Part shown: positions 13,791-47,952 of the stretch, piece after piece
Layout: each line of letters starts with the position of its first letter
Position numbering within the stretch: position 1 is the stretch's first letter
Assembly (NCBI GenBank): GCA_017502165.1
Contig: JAFVVO010000033.1
Coordinates: forward strand, 1 to 50,628
DNA length: 50,628 nt
Direction: 5' to 3'
Source: Clostridia bacterium
GTDB lineage: Bacteria > Bacillota > Clostridia > Christensenellales > QALW01
The notes under the pieces: generated by a model
Told to the model about the DNA's origin: nothing
Databases searched by the model: none
Seen by the model: the letters and a program-made list of their open reading frames with translations, nothing else
Made by a program: the position numbers and the translations under genes

Positions 13791-14900
13791 TTACTTCAAA
13801 ATATTGCGAAGCTGCTCAACTGCGTCGTCGTAGGATTCAAAGCTGATAACGTAATCACAAATTGCCGCATTTTTGTCCATATATTCAATGGCGGTCAATC
13901 GATTTACCTTATCTTCGATTGAAGAATTTTTCTTCAAAATATTAGTCATCAATGCACGTTTTTCACGCTTGATGAATATGGACGTAACGTTTTTGAAGTG
14001 GGTTTTTAACGCCATTGCGCCACAAATATCCATAGTGGTGAGTACACGTTTTCCCTTATTTAAGATTTTTTCAACGTCAATCTTTTTGGAGCCGTAGCCG
14101 TGGCCTGCATACATTGTAGATTCAAGCAGCTCACCGTTGTCGCACATACTTCTGAACTCTTCAAGTGAAACGTAGTTGTACCAATTGTTTTCCTCAACAG
14201 CGGTGGGGTCCTTGGTTGTATAGCTTATCAGCTTTTCAAAGTCCTTGTTTTCGGCAAGGAATCGTGTTGCGATTTTAGATTTTCCACATCCGCTTGGGCC
14301 TACCAGCACCACAATGTCTGAAGATTCAAAAACGGACGAGCTTGGGTTTATGGAATAGCTTTCTGCAATTACTTCAACAATCTTTAAGAATTCGTCGTAA
14401 CGGTTTACTGCCAACATTCCCGTTGCTTCCTGATTCCAAGGACGGCGCATTAAAACGGGATATTTTGCATTAGAAGTAAGAATATTGTGCATTGCGTCAT
14501 CAAACAAAATATCTGTGTGGATGTTTTCCTTCCGCGCGCCCATATAGATATGGTCGGCAGAAATCTCAGGGAACTCCTCCATAATTCTTTGAGCGCGAAT
14601 ACCCATAACCTCGGGAGGAACGGCAGTACAAATGAAAATTTCAGTCATTTGACTAAGCTTGCGAACAAATTCCTTTGCTCCCTCATAAATGGGCTGATTG
14701 CGGTAAAAATCGGGGTCCTTAAAATACGGATAGATGCTGTCAATTCTTTCTCCCGTCTTCCCCCACTTTACCTTTTCGTAAATGGTCATAGGCGGATCAA
14801 ATTTATATTTTTCGTTTGCTAACCTTATGGCATAGCTTGTACATTCCATTAAAATATCGTCTACGTCGAGGGCAATAGATAACTTATATTTTCTGTTCAT
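13791..14900 (-). CDS. Fusion of 5'(3')-deoxyribonucleotidase-like and guanylate kinase-like domains
   Basis: 369 residues in two domains. Residues 1 to about 185 resemble NT5C-type HAD nucleotidases: the nucleophile motif ALDVDDILME (Asp12, Asp14), FICTAVP, MRRPWN and DILFDDAMHN in the usual order. Residues about 195-369 resemble guanylate kinase: P-loop VGPSGCGKSK, SYTTKDPT, the NYVSLEEF segment, NGELLE, YGSKK and the DICGAMALK strand. In true guanylate kinases the second segment is TTRxPRxGE, with arginines holding the GMP phosphate; here the first is Lys and the second is lost (TTKDPT), so the kinase substrate may differ. It lies 18 bases after a COG2509 flavoprotein gene and probably shares its transcript. 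Confidence 0.75.
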   Translation of the reverse strand: MNRKYKLSIALDVDDILMECTSYAIRLANEKYKFDPPMTIYEKVKWGKTGERIDSIYPYFKDPDFYRNQPIYEGAKEFVRKLSQMTEIFICTAVPPEVMGIRAQRIMEEFPEISADHIYMGARKENIHTDILFDDAMHNILTSNAKYPVLMRRPWNQEATGMLAVNRYDEFLKIVEVIAESYSINPSSSVFESSDIVVLVGPSGCGKSKIATRFLAENKDFEKLISYTTKDPTAVEENNWYNYVSLEEFRSMCDNGELLESTMYAGHGYGSKKIDVEKILNKGKRVLTTMDICGAMALKTHFKNVTSIFIKREKRALMTNILKKNSSIEDKVNRLTAIEYMDKNAAICDYVISFESYDDAVEQLRNILK

Positions 14901-14918: not shown

Positions 14919-16289
14919 TTATTGTTTTTCTGCAATTTGGCGCGCAACAAACACACCGCTTGCAGAAGCGTGTGAAAGTGAATGAGTAATTCCGCTTCCG
15001 TCACCGATAATATAGAGGCCGTCGTATTTTGTTTCAAGGTTTTCGTTTACCTTTACCTCCATATTGTAGAACTTAACCTCAACGCCGTAAAGTAGCGTAT
15101 CATCGTTGGCAGTTCCGGGAGCAATTTTATCGAGGGCATATATCATTTCGATAATTCCGTCAAGAATTCGTTTGGGAAGCACCAGGCTTAAATCACCCGG
15201 AGTAGCGCTGAGAGTGGGAGTAACGAAGGACTCCTCCATTCTCTTATAATTGGAACGCTGACCGCGAATAAGGTCGCCAAAGCGCTGAACAATAACACCG
15301 CCGCCTAACATATTACTAAGCCGTGCGATTGATTCGCCATAACTGTTAGAATGCTTGAAGGGCTCGGAAAAATGCTTTGCCACAAGAAGCGCAAAGTTTG
15401 TGTTATTGGTCTGCTTAGACGGGTCCTCATAGCTATGACCGTTAACAGTTATAATACCGTTAGTGTTTTCGGTAACTACCGCGCCCTTGGGATTCATACA
15501 AAACGTGCGCACCTTATCACCGTACTGACGGGTTTTATAAACAATTTTACTTTCGTAAAGCTCATCAGTCAGGTGTGAAAACACTTCAGCAGGAAGCTCA
15601 ACACGTACACCGATATCAACACGGTTTGCCTCTGTGGGAATATCAATATCTGCGCAAACGTTTTCCATCCATTTGCTACCGCTTCTGCCAACGGAAATAA
15701 TGCATTTATCCGCAGTATATTCTTTACCCTGCACCGAAATCATATACTGATTATCAACGTAGCTTATCTTGTCCACGTGGGAATTAAAATAAAAATCAAC
15801 CTTATCGGCAAGATATTCGTAAATATTACCAAGAACAACGTAATTTTTATCAGTTCCCAGGTGACGCACCGAAGCATCAAGAAGATGCAGGTCATTCTGA
15901 ATACAGAGCTTTCGGAATTTGCTTCCCGTAGTGGAGTAAAGCTTTGTGCCGTCGCCGCCGTAAAACATATTTATTTCGTCAACGTATTTCATAAGATCGA
16001 GGGCTTGCTTTTTGCCGATATAATCGCAAAGGGTACCGCCGAAATCGTTGGTAATATTATATTTTCCGTCTGAAAAGGCACCTGCACCGCCAAATCCGCT
16101 CATAATCGAGCAGGTTTTACATTCTATACAGGATTTTATTTTATCCCCATCAATGGGACACTTACGTTTGTGAAGCGGATTACCTGCTTCAAAAACGGCA
16201 ATTTTTAATTCGGGAGCAAGTTTGGAAAGCTCGTAAGCAGAAAAAATACCGCCGGGGCCTGCCCCAATAATTAAAACGTCATATTTCAT
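14919..16289 (-). CDS. COG2509-type FAD-dependent dehydrogenase
   Basis: A predicted flavoprotein of 456 residues. The N-terminal dinucleotide-binding motif IIGAGPGGIFSAYEL is at about 6-20. A cysteine-rich segment (KRKCPI...KSCIECKTCSIMSGFGGAG) follows at about 42-70, and the C-terminal FAD contact GLYIIGDGSGITHSLSHA lies at about 425-442. These are features of the widespread uncharacterised COG2509 family; its physiological substrate is unknown. ATG has GGAGGATG upstream and a promoter at 16338-16366. It is followed closely by the nucleotidase-kinase fusion gene. Confidence 0.85.
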   Translation of the reverse strand: MKYDVLIIGAGPGGIFSAYELSKLAPELKIAVFEAGNPLHKRKCPIDGDKIKSCIECKTCSIMSGFGGAGAFSDGKYNITNDFGGTLCDYIGKKQALDLMKYVDEINMFYGGDGTKLYSTTGSKFRKLCIQNDLHLLDASVRHLGTDKNYVVLGNIYEYLADKVDFYFNSHVDKISYVDNQYMISVQGKEYTADKCIISVGRSGSKWMENVCADIDIPTEANRVDIGVRVELPAEVFSHLTDELYESKIVYKTRQYGDKVRTFCMNPKGAVVTENTNGIITVNGHSYEDPSKQTNNTNFALLVAKHFSEPFKHSNSYGESIARLSNMLGGGVIVQRFGDLIRGQRSNYKRMEESFVTPTLSATPGDLSLVLPKRILDGIIEMIYALDKIAPGTANDDTLLYGVEVKFYNMEVKVNENLETKYDGLYIIGDGSGITHSLSHASASGVFVARQIAEKQ

Positions 16290-16390: not shown

Positions 16391-16416
16391 AACCCCGTGC
16401 GAAAATGCACGGGGTT
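16391..16416 (-). terminator. 10-bp hairpin downstream of the 158-residue protein gene
   Basis: Perfect stem AACCCCGTGC/GCACGGGGTT with a 6-nt loop. Only a weak U run follows on the minus strand, so termination may be partial. Its right arm overlaps the 13-nt motif GGGGTTACGTGTT that recurs at 17087. Confidence 0.5.
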
Positions 16417-16511
16417 ACGTGTTGTTTGGTTGTAAATGACTTAAGCTAATGGTAGATTTTTAGTTTTGCTGATGGGAGTCTCTCTTGGGTGATATAAGAC
16501 CCATACCTTTG

Positions 16512-16988
16512 TTACTCATAATCTGTTTTTCCTGCACCGATATATGATGCCAATACGGTTCCTTTTGAGTCAATAATCATTGTTCTTCCCTCAAATAAAA
16601 TACCGTCTAATAAAAAATATTTATAACCACTTTTTATCAGCCATACTTTATTTTGCTCATCAAAGGCTATCTTGTGATACAATCCTTTTTTAATGCTTTC
16701 GTACATTTCCGGATTAGCCGTTTTTAACGAAGTATCTGCAATTTTATATACGGTGAAGAAATCCGTTAGCTTATTTAATTCTGTGTTATCTCCTATGTCT
16801 AACTTTGCAACACCTAATTCAGAACTAAGTTCAGAATAGCTTTCGATATCTTCTTTATAATAAGCTATGTCAAAACTGCCAACATAATAGACAGGGCTCA
16901 ATGCTATAGTGGCGATGATAAAAAACAATATCAACAGAGAAGATATGACGATTATAATTTTTTTATTTCTTGAAGAAACTTTATTCAT
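16512..16988 (-). CDS. Unknown membrane-anchored protein
   Basis: Not recognised. 158 residues: a basic N-terminus (KVSSRNKK), one hydrophobic helix at about 11-30, and then an extracytoplasmic domain of about 125 residues that contains paired tyrosines and a late YIGAGKTDYE end. The ATG has AAGGTGG about 7 nt upstream. Its promoter (17013-17041) lies in the first copy of a 77-bp perfect repeat, so the gene forms one of two tandem modules. No homology to the neighbouring 438-residue protein was evident by eye. Confidence 0.6.
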   Translation of the reverse strand: MNKVSSRNKKIIIVISSLLILFFIIATIALSPVYYVGSFDIAYYKEDIESYSELSSELGVAKLDIGDNTELNKLTDFFTVYKIADTSLKTANPEMYESIKKGLYHKIAFDEQNKVWLIKSGYKYFLLDGILFEGRTMIIDSKGTVLASYIGAGKTDYE

Positions 16989-17009
16989 AAAATACCACCT
17001 TTCTTCAAC

Positions 17010-17086
17010 TTAATAATAAACCATTACGTTTGGAAAGTCAATACTAAAAAAGCGATAAACACTTGGTGTCTATCGCTAAAATTTAA
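17010..17086. repeat. 77-bp perfect direct repeat, copy 1
   Basis: Identical over 77 bases to 18554-18630. On the minus strand it holds a terminator (12-bp stem AGCGATAGACAC/GTGTTTATCGCT with one G-U pair, then six T) followed by a promoter (TTGACT, 17 nt, TATTAT at 17041-17013). Copy 1 drives the 158-residue protein gene. It ends with the TTAA that in copy 2 is the stop codon region of the metallopeptidase gene, which marks copy 2 as the likely original. Confidence 0.95.
17013..17041 (-). promoter_or_regulatory. Promoter inside repeat copy 1
   Basis: TTGACT (17041-17036), 17-nt spacer, TATTAT (17018-17013) on the minus strand, about 25 nt before the start codon at 16988. Confidence 0.6.
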
Positions 17087-17166
17087 GGGGTTACGTGTTT
17101 GTTTAGATGTTCAGCTACTAACGAGAGCTTTTTTCGGGTGCGGGAGAGGCGGAACTGTTGTCATCA

Positions 17167-18483
17167 TTATACGTCACCGCAAAACACAGTTATGCCGCCA
17201 AAATATCTTTTATACTTTTTTATTGAGGACTGTTCTTTTTTAATAGACTCCACATATTCTTGTTCGTCAAAGGAAAAATCAAACATATCCATTGCACTCT
17301 CATCTATTTTGCTAAAATCCACCATTAAATGAAAATCAATTACGTTATCCTCTTTTTTTAGCGTTACTTCACAACCTTCATAATCGTTTAATGGTAAATA
17401 CGTTGAGAAAATAAAGCTTTGGACAGCAAAATCCATTTCTGAAGAATAATATTCATAGCTATCCATAGTCCACGTCAAAAGCTGTCCGTTTTCATCGAAG
17501 GTCTGAATGCTTTGTGTTGACGAACCGTTAAAATCATTTACATAAATTGATTTTGCCGTCGCAATCCCGTAGAACATTGTTGACGCTATCATTATGATGG
17601 TTAATATTACTGAGCACAACAAAGTTTTAAAATGCTTAGCCGTTTGTTTTTTGGCTTCCCACGGTTCGTTATCTACAGTTTTAATAAATTCATTGCTGAA
17701 ATCGTTTTGCAAGGCGCATTTTCTATAGACAGTGTCGCCTCCGCGCTCTTTTATAAACGCAATGTGTTCTGCAGCCTTATCTTTTTCTCCCATTCTGATA
17801 AGTTGTGTAACAATAGAATTTCGGCAACCAACTTGGGTAATTAACGTATTCGAGTTCGCTAAAGCTTTTTCCAACTCAGCAACTATCTCTGTGCAATTAA
17901 GACCATCTCCGACAATAATCGAGCGATTAATCTTATGTATTTGTTCGTATGAAGCTCTCTGCTTATTATTAAAGTTAGCTGAATTAAATATTTCATCCGA
18001 TTTATTGTAAGCAACAATAGCTTCTTCAGTAAAACCAAGTCTGCAATAAGAAACAGCCAACACATAATAATATAAATATTTGTAGATAGTGAGTTTTTTG
18101 GCTTTGATCAACGCTTCAACGTCATATTTTTGCAAAATACTCAAAACTAAAGTGTATTTTCCGAGATGTAACAATAATTGGCAGATTAAAATTGCAACAA
18201 TCAAATCATTCCTTTTGTTATATCTTCCTTTGTATATTTGAAAAAGCTCGTTTAATCCTCTTTCGACTTCGCAGGTTTCGCTAACCGAGCTAAGAATTTT
18301 TTTGATTCGATTTATCGCAATTTTCTCAAAAACCGTTACACAGATGTACAACCATAAGAGCATCAGCAAACAAATTGTCCAGAGTTTTACGTTAGCATCA
18401 AAAAGGCTTAGTTCTATTACAATAGCGCCTGTAAATGCTATCAAGAAATAAGAAATTGCTATGTCCTTATACAATTTAATCAC
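17167..18483 (-). CDS. Unknown membrane protein with helical-repeat region
   Basis: Not recognised. 438 residues with a GTG start preceded by AGGAGG at 9 nt. Two N-terminal membrane helices (about 8-27 and 33-52) precede a cytoplasmic helical region of about 220 residues. Its alternating helices and the pattern ...LAVSYCRLGFTEEAIVAYNKS suggest TPR-like repeats. A third helix (about 287-308) leads to an outside domain of about 125 residues with YEYYSSEMDF and an acidic FSFDEQEYVESIKKE stretch. A TPR inside and a sensor-like domain outside suggest a scaffold or signalling role, but this is inference. It sits in the second tandem module, between the two 77-bp repeats. Confidence 0.6.
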   Translation of the reverse strand: MIKLYKDIAISYFLIAFTGAIVIELSLFDANVKLWTICLLMLLWLYICVTVFEKIAINRIKKILSSVSETCEVERGLNELFQIYKGRYNKRNDLIVAILICQLLLHLGKYTLVLSILQKYDVEALIKAKKLTIYKYLYYYVLAVSYCRLGFTEEAIVAYNKSDEIFNSANFNNKQRASYEQIHKINRSIIVGDGLNCTEIVAELEKALANSNTLITQVGCRNSIVTQLIRMGEKDKAAEHIAFIKERGGDTVYRKCALQNDFSNEFIKTVDNEPWEAKKQTAKHFKTLLCSVILTIIMIASTMFYGIATAKSIYVNDFNGSSTQSIQTFDENGQLLTWTMDSYEYYSSEMDFAVQSFIFSTYLPLNDYEGCEVTLKKEDNVIDFHLMVDFSKIDESAMDMFDFSFDEQEYVESIKKEQSSIKKYKRYFGGITVFCGDV

Positions 18484-18553
18484 CGTTTTGTGCCTCCTAT
18501 TATAGTGGGTGACAAGGTGACGGATCTATTGTCACCTTTTATCTTTATATGAT

Positions 18554-18630
18554 TTAATAATAAACCATTACGTTTGGAAAGTCAATACTAAAAAAGCGAT
18601 AAACACTTGGTGTCTATCGCTAAAATTTAA
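18554..18630. repeat. 77-bp perfect direct repeat, copy 2
   Basis: Identical to 17010-17086 and exactly 1544 bases away. It includes the stop codon of the metallopeptidase gene (18627-18629), its terminator, and the promoter (TTGACT at 18585-18580, TATTAT at 18562-18557) of the 438-residue protein gene. Confidence 0.95.
18557..18585 (-). promoter_or_regulatory. Promoter inside repeat copy 2
   Basis: TTGACT, 17-nt spacer and TATTAT on the minus strand, followed about 70 nt later by the GTG start at 18483. Confidence 0.6.
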
Positions 18631-19325
18631 TCTCTTCTTCCGCCGAAAATCAGAAGCAGACGCAATAATTGCATAAGTGAGACGGCTAATGCGGCAACAT
18701 AGGTTAATGCCGCGGCGGTAAGCACCTTTTTGGTGCCTACAAGCTCGTCACCGTAGAGAAAATTGTTCTCTTCAATAGCTACAAGCGCCCTTCTGCTTGC
18801 GTTAAATTCTGTTGGCAGGGTTACAAGCTGAAAAATCGTACTTAAACCGAAGCAGGCTATTCCTGCATAAACAAGGTTTGATATCCACGGAGTAAAACCG
18901 CCTAAAAGTAAGCCTAAAATAATTAACGGCATTGAAAGCATCGAGCCGATGTTGGTAATGGGCACAATAGCCATTCTGAATTTTGCAGGGGCATAATGCT
19001 CAGCATACTGAATGGCGTGGCCTACCTCGTGGCAGGCAATACCGATTGAAGCACAGCTTTTGCCGTAGTAAACGTCTTTTGAAAGACGGACAACGTTCTC
19101 TTTAGGGTCGTAATGGTCAGATAAATTCCCATTTACTGCTTCAACGGGCACGTTATTAAGTCCGTTTCGGTCTAAGACCAAGCGCGCCGCATCTGCGCCC
19201 GTTAAACCGCGGGCATTTGAAACACGGCTATATCTTTTGTACGTACTATTTACTCTTGCGTTTGCCCACAAAGCAAATATAACTGCGGGCATAACTAAAA
19301 CAAAATACGTCCAATCAAAGAACAT
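18627..19325 (-). CDS. YugP-type neutral zinc metallopeptidase (membrane)
   Basis: 232 residues of the COG2738 family. There is an N-terminal membrane helix (about 5-20), the zinc motif HEVGHAIQ near residue 99 with a preceding SIGIAC segment, two central helices (about 125-165) and a C-terminal helix near the end (ALTYVAALAVSLMQLLRLLL). The biological substrate is unknown in the family. It lies one base after the zinc-ribbon membrane protein gene and is co-transcribed with it. Its terminator is copy 2 of the 77-bp repeat. Confidence 0.88.
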   Translation of the reverse strand: MFFDWTYFVLVMPAVIFALWANARVNSTYKRYSRVSNARGLTGADAARLVLDRNGLNNVPVEAVNGNLSDHYDPKENVVRLSKDVYYGKSCASIGIACHEVGHAIQYAEHYAPAKFRMAIVPITNIGSMLSMPLIILGLLLGGFTPWISNLVYAGIACFGLSTIFQLVTLPTEFNASRRALVAIEENNFLYGDELVGTKKVLTAAALTYVAALAVSLMQLLRLLLIFGGRRD

Positions 19326-19326
19326 A

Positions 19327-19740
19327 TTACACCTTCTTTTCGAACTGTTTTTTGCAAACTCTGCAGGTAATTTTTATTTTACCTTTTCCTTTAGGAACTC
19401 TTGAATAGTTTTTACAGTTGGGGCACTTAATATAAGCATAATTTTTACGTTCATTGAACATTGTTCTGTAAAATTTTAACTTGCCGCGAAGCTTTTCGGT
19501 TCGTGCCAGGTATTTATGATTTTCCATAACGCGACGGTTGATATTTTTGGAAAATGCTCTGAAAATAATTAAGAACATAAACGCAAAGCTTACGCTTGAA
19601 CAAATAACAGAGCCCAAGGGCCAAAACAGATTAAAAATCATACTTACAACAGATAACACCAAGGCACAGCCAAGCATTACCTTGCCTAATTCGTCAACGC
19701 CGTAGCGACCGTACATAAATTTTATAAGCTTATCTCGCAT
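19327..19740 (-). CDS. Membrane protein with C-terminal zinc ribbon
   Basis: 137 residues from an ATG at 19740 with GAGGT 5 nt upstream; an in-frame TTG at 19752 overlaps that SD. It has a short amphipathic N-terminus (LIKFMYGRYGVDELGKVML), two membrane helices (about 22-62), a basic linker, and a zinc ribbon with two CxxC pairs (CPNCKN and CRVCKK). The layout is common in Firmicutes and has no assigned function. It precedes the metallopeptidase by one base, so the two may work together. Confidence 0.75.
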   Translation of the reverse strand: MRDKLIKFMYGRYGVDELGKVMLGCALVLSVVSMIFNLFWPLGSVICSSVSFAFMFLIIFRAFSKNINRRVMENHKYLARTEKLRGKLKFYRTMFNERKNYAYIKCPNCKNYSRVPKGKGKIKITCRVCKKQFEKKV

Positions 19741-19863
19741 AAAATACCTCAAATTAACGTTTTTTACCTATGTTTTAGAATATAAAAACTTTCGTTTTGA
19801 AATTTATAATTATATTGTACCCTATGATTTTGAAACTGATAAGTTTTAACGGTGAATTTTTGC

Positions 19864-20535
19864 TCACAAACCGTTATTTTTTAACTTTTCCATAGCGGCC
19901 TTCTCAATTCTGCTGACGTATGAACGGGAAATTCCTAATCGTTTTGCCGTTTCCCTTTGTGTCAAGGGACTCCTTCCCCCTATACCGAAGCGCAGAATTA
20001 TTATTTTTTGTTCTCTTTCATCAAGAACGCGCCTCATTTTTGCATAAATTTCCTTTATGAGCAGGCGGTTATTTACGCTTACGTCAACTTCTTCATCGTC
20101 ACTTTTCAGCACGTCGATCAAGGTCACCTCGTTTCCCTCTTTATCAGTGCCGATCGGATCGGAAAGTGAAACGTCACTTTTTCGTTTTTTGTTGGCGCGC
20201 AGGTGCATTAAAATTTCGTTTTCTATGCATCTTGAGGCGTAGGTTGCCAGGTGCGTGCTCTTGTCGGTGTTATATGATTTTACTGCCTTAATCAAACCGA
20301 TTGAGCCGATAGAAATCAAATCGTCGTTTTCGTATCCGCTTGAGGAATATTTCTTCGCTATATGGGCAACAAGCCGCATATTATGCTCAATAAGCTTGTT
20401 GTAGGCGTCAGTATCCCCTTGTAAATACCTTTGCAAAAGTGTTTTTTCTTCGTTTTTGCTTAAGGGCTTGGGAAAGGAGTTCTTTACGTGCCCAATAAAA
20501 AAACGAAGCTGAAGTATTAAATCAAGCAACCACAT
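19864..20535 (-). CDS. sigK: RNA polymerase sporulation sigma factor SigK
   Basis: The late mother-cell sigma factor, which drives spore coat and maturation genes. The 223-residue chain begins with a hydrophobic pro-sequence (LLDLILQLRFFIGHVKNSF), removed by SpoIVFB in model species. It then shows region 2 (IEHNMRLVAHIAKKY, DLISIGSIGLIKAV, RCIENEILMHLRA) and region 4 (RETAKRLGISRSYVSRIEK). The NEILMHLRA and SLSDPIGTDKEGNE segments match SigK closely. It is intact, with no skin-type prophage interrupting it. GGAGGT lies 8 nt before the ATG. Confidence 0.95.
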   Translation of the reverse strand: MWLLDLILQLRFFIGHVKNSFPKPLSKNEEKTLLQRYLQGDTDAYNKLIEHNMRLVAHIAKKYSSSGYENDDLISIGSIGLIKAVKSYNTDKSTHLATYASRCIENEILMHLRANKKRKSDVSLSDPIGTDKEGNEVTLIDVLKSDDEEVDVSVNNRLLIKEIYAKMRRVLDEREQKIIILRFGIGGRSPLTQRETAKRLGISRSYVSRIEKAAMEKLKNNGL

Positions 20536-42599: not shown

Positions 42600-42629
42600 A
42601 AAAAAGCCACCCGATTGGGTGGCTTTTTT
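42600..42629. terminator. Bidirectional terminator between convergent genes
   Basis: A 13-bp stem AAAAAAGCCACCC/GGGTGGCTTTTTT with a 4-nt loop and A/T runs on both sides. It serves the isomerase gene (plus) and the ATP-grasp gene (minus). A near-identical stem occurs at 44353-44380. Confidence 0.9.
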
Positions 42630-42636
42630 ATTAGTT

Positions 42637-43821
42637 TTATTCCTGACTTTCCATATATGCCCGATAAAATGCGTGAGCATCAAATTTTCTCAAGCCCTTG
42701 TTCTCAAAGAAACTCCTTATTTTATCGCGCGACAATGTTGGTCCGCACATAACCTGTTCATAATCCATAGCAGGATGCGAATTAATTTCACATAATTTCA
42801 TGCCTTCTTGAGTAATAATAATGTCCAATCCCAAATAATCAAGTGATGATACGTGATTGCAAAGATTGTTTATTTTATTGCGCACAAACTCCCAATTGGG
42901 AAGTCCTAACGTTTTCCATTCCGCATTAGTATCAGGGTGTTTTTCCAATAACCATTTTCCGTCAGGAGTATACCTTTTATAACGAATGCAAAAATCATTA
43001 TATTTTCCCGTTTCAAAATCAAAGCCTACACCTACACCGCCGGAAGAGAGATTACTTGCGCCTCCATTAACAGAAGTTCCAAATCTTGCATAGGAAACTG
43101 CGCACGACCACGTAGTCTGTGCATATCTGTCCTCACTGGTATTTTTGCACATAATTACTCGAAGCGTACATTCACTGTCCGGCCATACGTTTGCAAGCTC
43201 TTTATGCTGATGAGCGTATTCAGTAATTATATAATTACGCATTGTGTCGCGTATCTCTTCAAAACGAGTAAAATTAATTGGTTTATTATTTCCATACAGT
43301 CCGTCTTCGCGCTGTTCAAGCTTGATAAAACCGAGACCGCCGGATGTTCCGGAATTTGGTTTCATCGCAAGTATCTTTTTTTGTTGAAGAAGATTCCATA
43401 GGAAATCTTTGTCTTTCGAAATGTCTGTTGGACAATCCATTAAATAAGTAAAGCGGCCACCGCAAAGTTCATTTTCCACATAAGCATAGTATTCAGGCAT
43501 CGTGTCCTCACAGCCATTACTGTTAAGCACGTACTTTAACGTAGTTTTGTCCAACCACTTAAGAAAATGATTATTCATCGGATGGAGCATAAAATACTGA
43601 AAGTCAGGAACGTAATTTTGAAAATTTTCCTCAGTAAGTCCATATAATTCTATTCTTCCAGGATAAAAGCCTCTTTCTAAAGCCCATTTCTTTTTATCAT
43701 CATCGAAAACCGGAAAAGCCTCTTCATCATCACGTAATTTTTTTACGAACATCCCCGCCCATCGATAATCCATTCCGAGCGCACGAATTTTTTCGAGCAA
43801 GACATCATAATTTGTAGCCAT
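42637..43821 (-). CDS. Sugar-transfer associated ATP-grasp protein
   Basis: 394 residues with an ATP-grasp fold of the PF14397 (sugar-transfer associated) kind. Phosphate-loop-like AMKPNSGTSGGLGFIKLE lies near residue 155 and the C-terminal metal-binding LCEINSHPAMDYEQV near 355, with LGLDIIITQEG just before. Such proteins ligate or modify carboxylates and are often near capsule or teichoic acid genes; the substrate is unknown. The first 130 residues are helical and have no motif I know. A TTGACT/TATAAT promoter (43901-43929) drives it and it is divergent from an XRE regulator. Confidence 0.75.
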   Translation of the reverse strand: MATNYDVLLEKIRALGMDYRWAGMFVKKLRDDEEAFPVFDDDKKKWALERGFYPGRIELYGLTEENFQNYVPDFQYFMLHPMNNHFLKWLDKTTLKYVLNSNGCEDTMPEYYAYVENELCGGRFTYLMDCPTDISKDKDFLWNLLQQKKILAMKPNSGTSGGLGFIKLEQREDGLYGNNKPINFTRFEEIRDTMRNYIITEYAHQHKELANVWPDSECTLRVIMCKNTSEDRYAQTTWSCAVSYARFGTSVNGGASNLSSGGVGVGFDFETGKYNDFCIRYKRYTPDGKWLLEKHPDTNAEWKTLGLPNWEFVRNKINNLCNHVSSLDYLGLDIIITQEGMKLCEINSHPAMDYEQVMCGPTLSRDKIRSFFENKGLRKFDAHAFYRAYMESQE

Positions 43822-44352: not shown

Positions 44353-44380
44353 AAAAGCCACCCGTTTGGGTGGCTTTTTT
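44353..44380. terminator. Terminator downstream of the XRE gene
   Basis: Stem AAAAGCCACCC/GGGTGGCTTTT with a 4-nt loop and T-run on the plus strand; it differs from the 42600-42629 terminator only in loop and tail. It also lies downstream of the FAD oxidoreductase gene on the minus strand. Confidence 0.85.
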
Positions 44381-44446
44381 ATAGCTTTTTCGCGTTAAAA
44401 CTTCCGCATTTTAAGATATTTTCAGCAAATCACCTCAAAAGAGCGA

Positions 44447-45826: not shown

Positions 45827-45931
45827 TTACCACTCTGAAGCTGAGCCGTCGGCGTGGCGCCAAACAGGATTTTTCCAATTATGCGGTGTTTTATTTTTTC
45901 AAGCGCAAGCTCATGGTTAAGCCTGCGCGTT
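45827..45931 (-). pseudogene. Decayed 3' end of a second galactonate dehydratase gene
   Basis: Bases 45846-45897 are identical over 52 nt to 46823-46874, the last part of the intact dehydratase gene. The copied frame still spells [14 protein letters not shown] and ends EW-stop (TAA at 45827-45829). One base is missing after the identical block (frameshift in ...LEEN), and about 12 bases are gone further upstream. Similarity fades near 45931. Only the terminal 30 or so codons remain. Confidence 0.85.
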
Positions 45932-46803: not shown

Positions 46804-47952
46804 CTACCACTCTGCAACGCTACCGTCGGCGTGGCGCCAAACAGGATTTTTCCAATTATGCGGTGTTTTATTTTCTTCAAGCACAAGCTCTTTGTTCACA
46901 TCAACACCAAGGCCTGCCTTCTTCGGCAAATCCACATAGCCGTCCGTAAACTTAAAGTCATCCTGATTCTTTACGTAATCAAGTACACTTTTTCCCACAT
47001 TATAGTGAATACCGATGCTCTGCTCCTGAATTACCGCGTTATAGCTTGTTGCGTCAACGTTGAGGCAAGCGGCAAGGGCAATAGGTCCTAAAGGACAGTG
47101 AGGCGCCAGGGCAACGTCATAAGCTTCTGCCATAGAGGCAATTTTCTTAACCTCCGTTATACCGCCTGCGTGTGACAAGTCGGGCTGAATAATATCAACG
47201 CCCCCCGCTTCAAGTAAGCGTTTGAAATCATATTTTGAGAAAAGTCTTTCACCCGTTGCAATCGGAATATTACATGCGGCGGCAATTTCCTTAAAGCACT
47301 CCATATTTTCGCACAATACGGGCTCTTCAATAAACATCGGGTCAAATTCTTCAAGCTTTTTTGCAAGCACCTTTGCCATAGGCTTATGTACACGGCCGTG
47401 GAAGTCAATGGCAATTCCAAAGTATTTTCCGCAGGATTCTCTGATAGCGGCAACACGTTCGAGTACCGCATCAATTTTATCGTAAGAATCAATCATTTGA
47501 AGCTCTTCTGTAGCGTTCATCTTGATTGCCTTAAAGCCTGCGTCCATTTTTTCCTTAGCGGCTGCGCCCACGTCGCTCGGACGGTCTCCGCCTATCCAAG
47601 AATAAACCTTCATCTTATTACGGCACTTGCCACCCAAAAGCTCATAAACGGGAACGCCAAACACCTTGCCCTTGATATCCCACAAGGCTTGGTCGATTCC
47701 TGACAAGGCACTCATCAGTACGCCGCCGCCACGGTAAAAGCCCGCGCGATAAATCGTACTCCAAATATCTTCAATGTCCGAAGGGTTCTTACCGATGAGA
47801 TAATCCTTGTATTCTTGCACACAAGCAAGGACGGTTGCCGCGTGGCCTTCCAGCACCGCTTCTCCCCAACCGACTAAACCTGCATCGGTTTTAATCTCCA
47901 CAAATCCCCAACGGGGACGTACAAAATAAGTGTTAACGCTTGTAATTTTCAT
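46804..47952 (-). CDS. dgoD: D-galactonate dehydratase
   Basis: An enolase-superfamily enzyme that dehydrates D-galactonate to 2-keto-3-deoxygalactonate. The 382 residues match E. coli DgoD almost throughout: [10 protein letters not shown]-type [23 protein letters not shown] (metal Asp and general-acid His), [27 protein letters not shown] and the base [16 protein letters not shown], ending in [11 protein letters not shown]. It lies between the kinase (30 bases) and the isomerase (9 bases). A decayed copy of its end is at 45827-45931. Confidence 0.93.

Follow-up and report, generated by a model that had tools for sequence, protein, structure and literature searches.

Results

Genes at the locus

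Throughout, the window denotes the whole stretch of DNA that was analysed, 50,628 nucleotides from a member of the Clostridia, and positions refer to it unless another contig is named. Along the minus strand, the region of interest contains genes for a SigK-type sigma factor (19864-20535), a 141-aa protein, a metallopeptidase, two orphan ORFs of 438 and 158 aa, and an FAD-dependent protein (14919-16289), in that order. The metallopeptidase ORF (18627..19325, 232 aa) is assigned to the Zn_peptidase_2 zinc metallopeptidases (Pfam PF04298, E 2.9e-88), and the gene is conserved in 40 of the 61 genomes searched. There is no recombinase among the annotated genes between 12.5 and 20.5 kb.

The two orphan ORFs, which we refer to as the cargo, encode predicted membrane proteins and also lie on the minus strand. 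The 438-aa ORF (17167..18483) begins with a GTG codon, and its protein has hydrophobic segments near the N-terminus, at residues 94-112 and near residues 282-300, along with a helical middle; the product of the 158-aa ORF (16512..16988) has one N-terminal hydrophobic segment. The cargo genes have GC contents of 31% and 34%, compared with a mean of 42% over 373 sampled ORFs, which places them at the 1st and 5th percentiles.

Neither protein has a convincing match in Pfam, NCBIfam or PADLOC; given the lack of a PADLOC match, we discarded the possibility that these are defence genes. In PHROG, the closest entry for the 438-aa protein, of unknown function, is only a weak match (E 0.0028). Among 60 relatives and 395 other genomes of the order, we find no convincing homologue of either protein. 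The weak matches that do occur at the level of the order (E 8e-4 to 9e-3) we take to be chance rather than homology, and the two such loci that we inspected hold proteins of other kinds. Nor do the searches lend support to a plasmid, phage or viral origin: the 438-aa protein has no match in plasmids or viral contigs and no convincing homologue in genome contigs, and the 158-aa protein has no match in phages or viral contigs. AlphaFold models built without an alignment were too low in quality for a fold search, and neither the Rfam scan nor the tRNA scan of the window gave a hit.

The leader of the 438-aa gene contains a hairpin, AAGGTGACAATAGATCCGTCACCTT (18514..18538, minus strand), followed by another GTCACC, which might indicate leader regulation. 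We considered whether this hairpin is a REP element and rejected the idea, because it occurs in a single copy in the genome and the genome contains no Y1 transposase.

A perfect terminator-promoter repeat

A sequence-only reading of this DNA had described two tandem modules, one for each cargo gene, that close with an identical 77-bp segment. The repeat is indeed exact: positions 17010-17086 are identical to 18554-18630, and the first flanking base differs on both sides. On the minus strand, the 77-mer begins with the base that directly precedes the metallopeptidase stop codon, includes a terminator, and finishes three bases past a sigma-A-like TTGACT-17-TATTAT site; both copies contain the terminator, with its 12-bp stem (-15.7 kcal/mol), and the promoter-like site, as had been claimed. 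In copy 2 (18554..18630), the terminator lies at 18595..18621, with a 3-nt loop and a T tract, and the promoter-like site, predicted by a sequence scan, lies at 18557..18585. This copy also holds the last base and the stop codon of the metallopeptidase ORF, and it is therefore likely to be the source, as the earlier reading had proposed. Copy 1 (17010..17086), probably the derived one, places the same terminator and promoter-like site ahead of the 158-aa gene.

Each cargo gene is thus supplied with a ready promoter in the sense of a promoter-like sequence. Because such sites are no more numerous in the region than in shuffles, we treat promoter activity as presumptive; both the promoter and the terminator activity of the 77-mer are predicted from its sequence. 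A search of the genome itself, 1.83 Mb, returns the two copies of the 77-mer and no third. We also searched 396 genomes of the order, including this one, using the 77+13-bp junction as the query, and the 77-mer is absent from the 395 others, with this or any other cargo; the nearest match is 44 bp at 82% identity, in a terminator-promoter-like region of one genome of another family.

A severed terminator marks the junction

The two modules also open with the same 13 nt, as had been reported: GGGGTTACGTGTT occurs at 16411 and at 17087. On the minus strand this 13-mer reads AACACGTAACCCC and stands behind each cargo gene. Behind the 158-aa gene (16411..16423), it runs on into GTGCATTTTCGCACGGGG, and the CCCC it contains makes up the left arm of a hairpin resembling a terminator, AACCCCGTGCATTTTCGCACGGGGTT (16391..16416, minus strand, on which its T tract is weak; the scan scored the hairpin on the plus strand). 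The GGGG of the 13-mer is accordingly one stem arm of the terminator at 16391-16416, and the 13-mer is therefore not an independent motif; at this position it is the intact edge of the terminator. Behind the 438-aa gene (17087..17099), the 77-mer directly abuts the same 13 bases, and the hairpin is severed after the CCCC arm. It follows that the copy at 17087 is the derived one, and that 17086/17087 is a recombination junction. With a slash marking the cut, the parent sequences are CCCC/GTGC and AGA/TTAA and the junction is CCCC/TTAA, without microhomology.

We considered whether the 13-mer might instead be the end of a mobile element. Allowing one mismatch, it has four matches in the genome, compared with two for a reversed control, and one of these lies within a coding gene and one at a contig end; there is no match in four other genomes of the family, a negative outcome for the search of relatives that the sequence-only reading had proposed. 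We therefore rejected this idea. A third exact copy lies at 71287-71299 of contig C14 (L043 1501-1513), 37 bases from the contig end and upstream of a gene for a secreted protein; by our own estimate, about 0.03-0.05 such copies are expected by chance.

Soundness of the assembly

It is important to ask whether the repeat could have been created by assembly. Contig ends in this genome overlap by exactly 141 bp, repeatedly; we therefore take the final assembler k to be 141, the assembler itself being presumed. With this k, the 77-bp repeat is bridged with 64 bases of unique flank. On the basis of these overlaps, we set aside collapse of a De Bruijn graph as the origin of the repeat. Low-coverage regions may stem from a smaller k.

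The other way in which an artefact might arise is that two strain alleles, with one gene each, were wrongly joined via the 77-mer. The assembly is fragmented and apparently metagenomic, with one genome per species, which is the setting for such an error. Nevertheless, unless this stretch derives from a much smaller k, the 141-bp overlaps imply that each 77-bp copy was bridged; the junction lacks homology that could mislead the overlap step; and a similar structure occurs in the separate assembly of a genome of the same genus, described below. We consider a misjoin of this kind very improbable.

A proposed origin in one recombination event

The two cargo genes share both the 13 bases behind them and the 77-mer ahead of them, so the simplest source of the second gene would be a sibling chromosome that had it at this position in place of the first. 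The stretch between the metallopeptidase and the next gene may be a variable slot for AT-rich, species-specific genes, and one recent recombination event would then have put a second occupant into the slot. The donor would be a fragment of the sibling chromosome bearing the alternative occupant, that is, the 77-mer, the 438-aa gene and the 13-mer behind it. By one route, the fragment would be circularised by end joining and then integrated by a single crossover inside the 77-mer; by another, homology on the metallopeptidase side would serve as an anchor, with an illegitimate fusion at the other end. Either route would leave the homology segment as a perfect direct repeat around the added gene, a common 13-nt edge, and, where a terminator stem is cut, one non-homologous junction. 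Two features that such integration should produce are found here: the exact 77 bp stand as a direct repeat around the 438-aa unit, and the one junction, CCCC/TTAA, is non-homologous. The donor allele, the single event and its mechanism are our inference. We regard addition to the slot by circularisation with a single crossover, or by homology-facilitated illegitimate recombination, as having about an even chance of being correct.

Each gene would thereby obtain the same promoter-like sequence and have a terminator as its boundary; through the repeat, the 1,544-bp unit could be lost or amplified. The earlier suggestion that the segment was duplicated recently, where a housekeeping gene ends, is supported.

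The same end state could also be reached within the lineage, by a tandem duplication of the 77-mer, both genes and the 13-mer, after which each copy lost a different gene or one copy had its gene replaced. Tandem gene duplications that retain near-identical terminators do occur elsewhere in the genome (L084 5456/6231 and L077 585/1887), the genes at L084 are paralogues, and the layout of repeat plus edge matches a tandem duplication. However, the interiors of the two modules are unrelated in sequence comparison, and neither gene leaves a remnant in the other module; we looked for residual homology between the modules and found none, a result that disfavours the idea that a duplicated gene merely diverged. 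This route would need more steps: a duplication and at least two further tidy events, each sparing an intact gene behind a well-placed promoter, while the 77 bp stayed identical. We view it as rather unlikely, though the most credible of the alternatives to the single recombination event.

The locus in a genome of the same genus

In a genome of the same genus (G001), the metallopeptidase is 72% identical and the order topoisomerase-SigK-134aa-metallopeptidase is retained. There a different terminator stands behind the metallopeptidase, and the next gene, judged from its sequence, encodes peptide chain release factor 3 (prfC), with no cargo gene at the locus; the gene for the FAD-dependent protein is on another contig. 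As far as the genomes compared show, then, the cargo appears to be specific to the source species. The sequence-only reading would have been contradicted if all relatives carried the same two genes in this order without the repeat, and what we find is relatives without the cargo.

Similar structures in the genome and the genus

From the 1.83-Mb genome, stretches adding up to about 430 kb were sampled for similar structures. Within the window itself, the 276-aa gene that follows a racemase-like gene has behind it a relic of the latter's 3' end (45828-45912 versus 46805-46890, 93%), and near-identical terminators (42602-42642 and 44353-44391, 90%) flank a 394-aa gene. On contig C1 (L068 5665-12645), six related terminator or terminator-promoter segments lie between unrelated genes and end at a convergent spoVAC-type gene. 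The genes between the segments encode a 285-aa protein; YitT and MscS; ROK and SIS; a lipase-like protein; a 226-aa protein; and a 161-aa protein. Two of the segments have 140 bp in common at 93% identity, including the promoter and start region, and two others contain a relic resembling the 3' end of the spoVAC-type gene, one of which aligns to that gene at 79%.

Contig C9 of G001 (L066) contains a 256-bp repeat (14942-15197 and 18020-18271, 95.7% identical) before two different genes. The repeat includes part of a terminator, a promoter and a start codon, and its second copy begins in the terminator loop.

In samples of about 400 kb, we count ten pairs of local, non-coding repeats that enclose an intact gene in this genome, at four loci, and one in G001; the same layout is absent from samples of that size from two other members of the order. 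Among same-strand terminator pairs less than 3 kb apart, 3 of 71 are near-identical in this genome and 0 of 69 in G001; for distant pairs the figure is 8 of 10,619. Apart from the pair at this locus, the two remaining near-identical close pairs belong to tandem gene duplications. These counts, which are small, suggest a tendency but do not prove one.

Several other structures were noted. On C9 of G001, a 35-bp exact repeat (14537-14571 and 14926-14960) coincides with the end and the start of a short downstream gene. On contig C10 of the own genome (L077), a non-coding repeat of about 300 bp (18606-18907 and 19691-19995, 82%) flanks a 158-aa orphan ORF, and the contig begins with a tandem gene duplication (560-1682 and 1862-2987). 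Contig C5 of G001 (L151 13327-16287) holds what looks like a diversity-generating retroelement, with a variable repeat in a 384-aa protein (14366-14469), a template repeat (14960-15063), a small accessory ORF and a reverse-transcriptase-like 353-aa ORF.

Discussion

Is the locus a cassette?

The sequence-only reading had proposed cassette-like capture. In its strictest form, this would be a site-specific cassette, or a tiny cis-mobilizable element, at the 3' end of the metallopeptidase gene, with the 77-mer as its att repeat. Such an element would account for a direct repeat that includes the 3' end of the gene and restores it on integration; the hairpin can be read as inverted recombinase sites, and similar layouts occur elsewhere in the genome. 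On the other side, no recombinase is seen in the annotated neighbourhood, although one could act from elsewhere; a T tract follows the inverted repeat as in a terminator, no other genome searched in the order pairs the 77-mer with different cargo, and the repeats at similar loci have no att-like core in common beyond terminator-like similarity. With the 13-mer explained as a terminator edge and the proposed checks negative, cassette capture finds no support. A plain recombination event explains the anatomy; we judge a site-specific element to be highly unlikely.

The integron gene cassettes are a natural point of comparison, having likewise one gene per unit and tandem units with a repeated element between them. 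The integron attC core box is GTTRRRY; on inspection, the 13-mer reads GTTACGT and does not fit it. Unlike integron cassettes, each unit here has its own promoter-like sequence, and no integrase is seen nearby.

The ssrA islands of Dehalococcoides are tandem genomic islands with a repeated gene end, formed by accretion as cited in that work (PMC3146451). The resemblance is one of layout only: in both cases the units stand in tandem behind a conserved gene, and a copy of that gene's end bounds each unit. The ssrA islands are large, many carry serine-recombinase genes, and their repeat is 20 bp and reused (PMC3146451), whereas the units described here are 0.7-1.5 kb and contain one gene, with no recombinase seen.

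A closer parallel lies in circularisation by ligation with a single crossover, and in homology-facilitated illegitimate recombination, both of which are described processes (PMC3240628). Such processes are expected to leave either the homology segment in direct repeat or homologous anchoring at one side, together with a non-homologous junction, and the locus agrees with this. Those were laboratory transfers of selected DNA, whereas the donor here is deduced and the homology segment is just 77 bp.

Evidence for and against recombination

Several observations support recombination at a variable slot: the perfect repeat ends at real sequence differences, the terminator is cut without microhomology, the module interiors are unrelated, the cargo is absent from the locus in G001 and has no convincing homologues in the order, the GC content of the cargo is low, and similar loci exist both in this genome and in G001. 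Against it, a strain with just one of the two genes is not seen, 77 bp is short for a RecA-dependent crossover, and the third exact 13-mer at a contig end could hint at an end that is reused.

Taken together, the evidence leads us to favour a recent and ordinary product of recombination at a variable slot over the work of a dedicated cassette system. Since similar structures recur in the genome and the genus, the structure is of moderate interest. It provides a clear snapshot of how a new gene can join the neighbourhood of a conserved gene, gaining a promoter and a terminator at once.

A stronger view is that orphan genes in this genus are repeatedly placed behind housekeeping genes by a mechanism that may even be dedicated to the task: breakage at terminator hairpins would duplicate a terminator-plus-promoter block along with each incoming gene. 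We hold this to be a long shot; if it were true, newcomer genes would arrive already insulated and expressed. More generally, the similar loci in this genome and in the sibling species suggest that orphan genes in the genus may regularly become established through the copying of terminator-promoter blocks.
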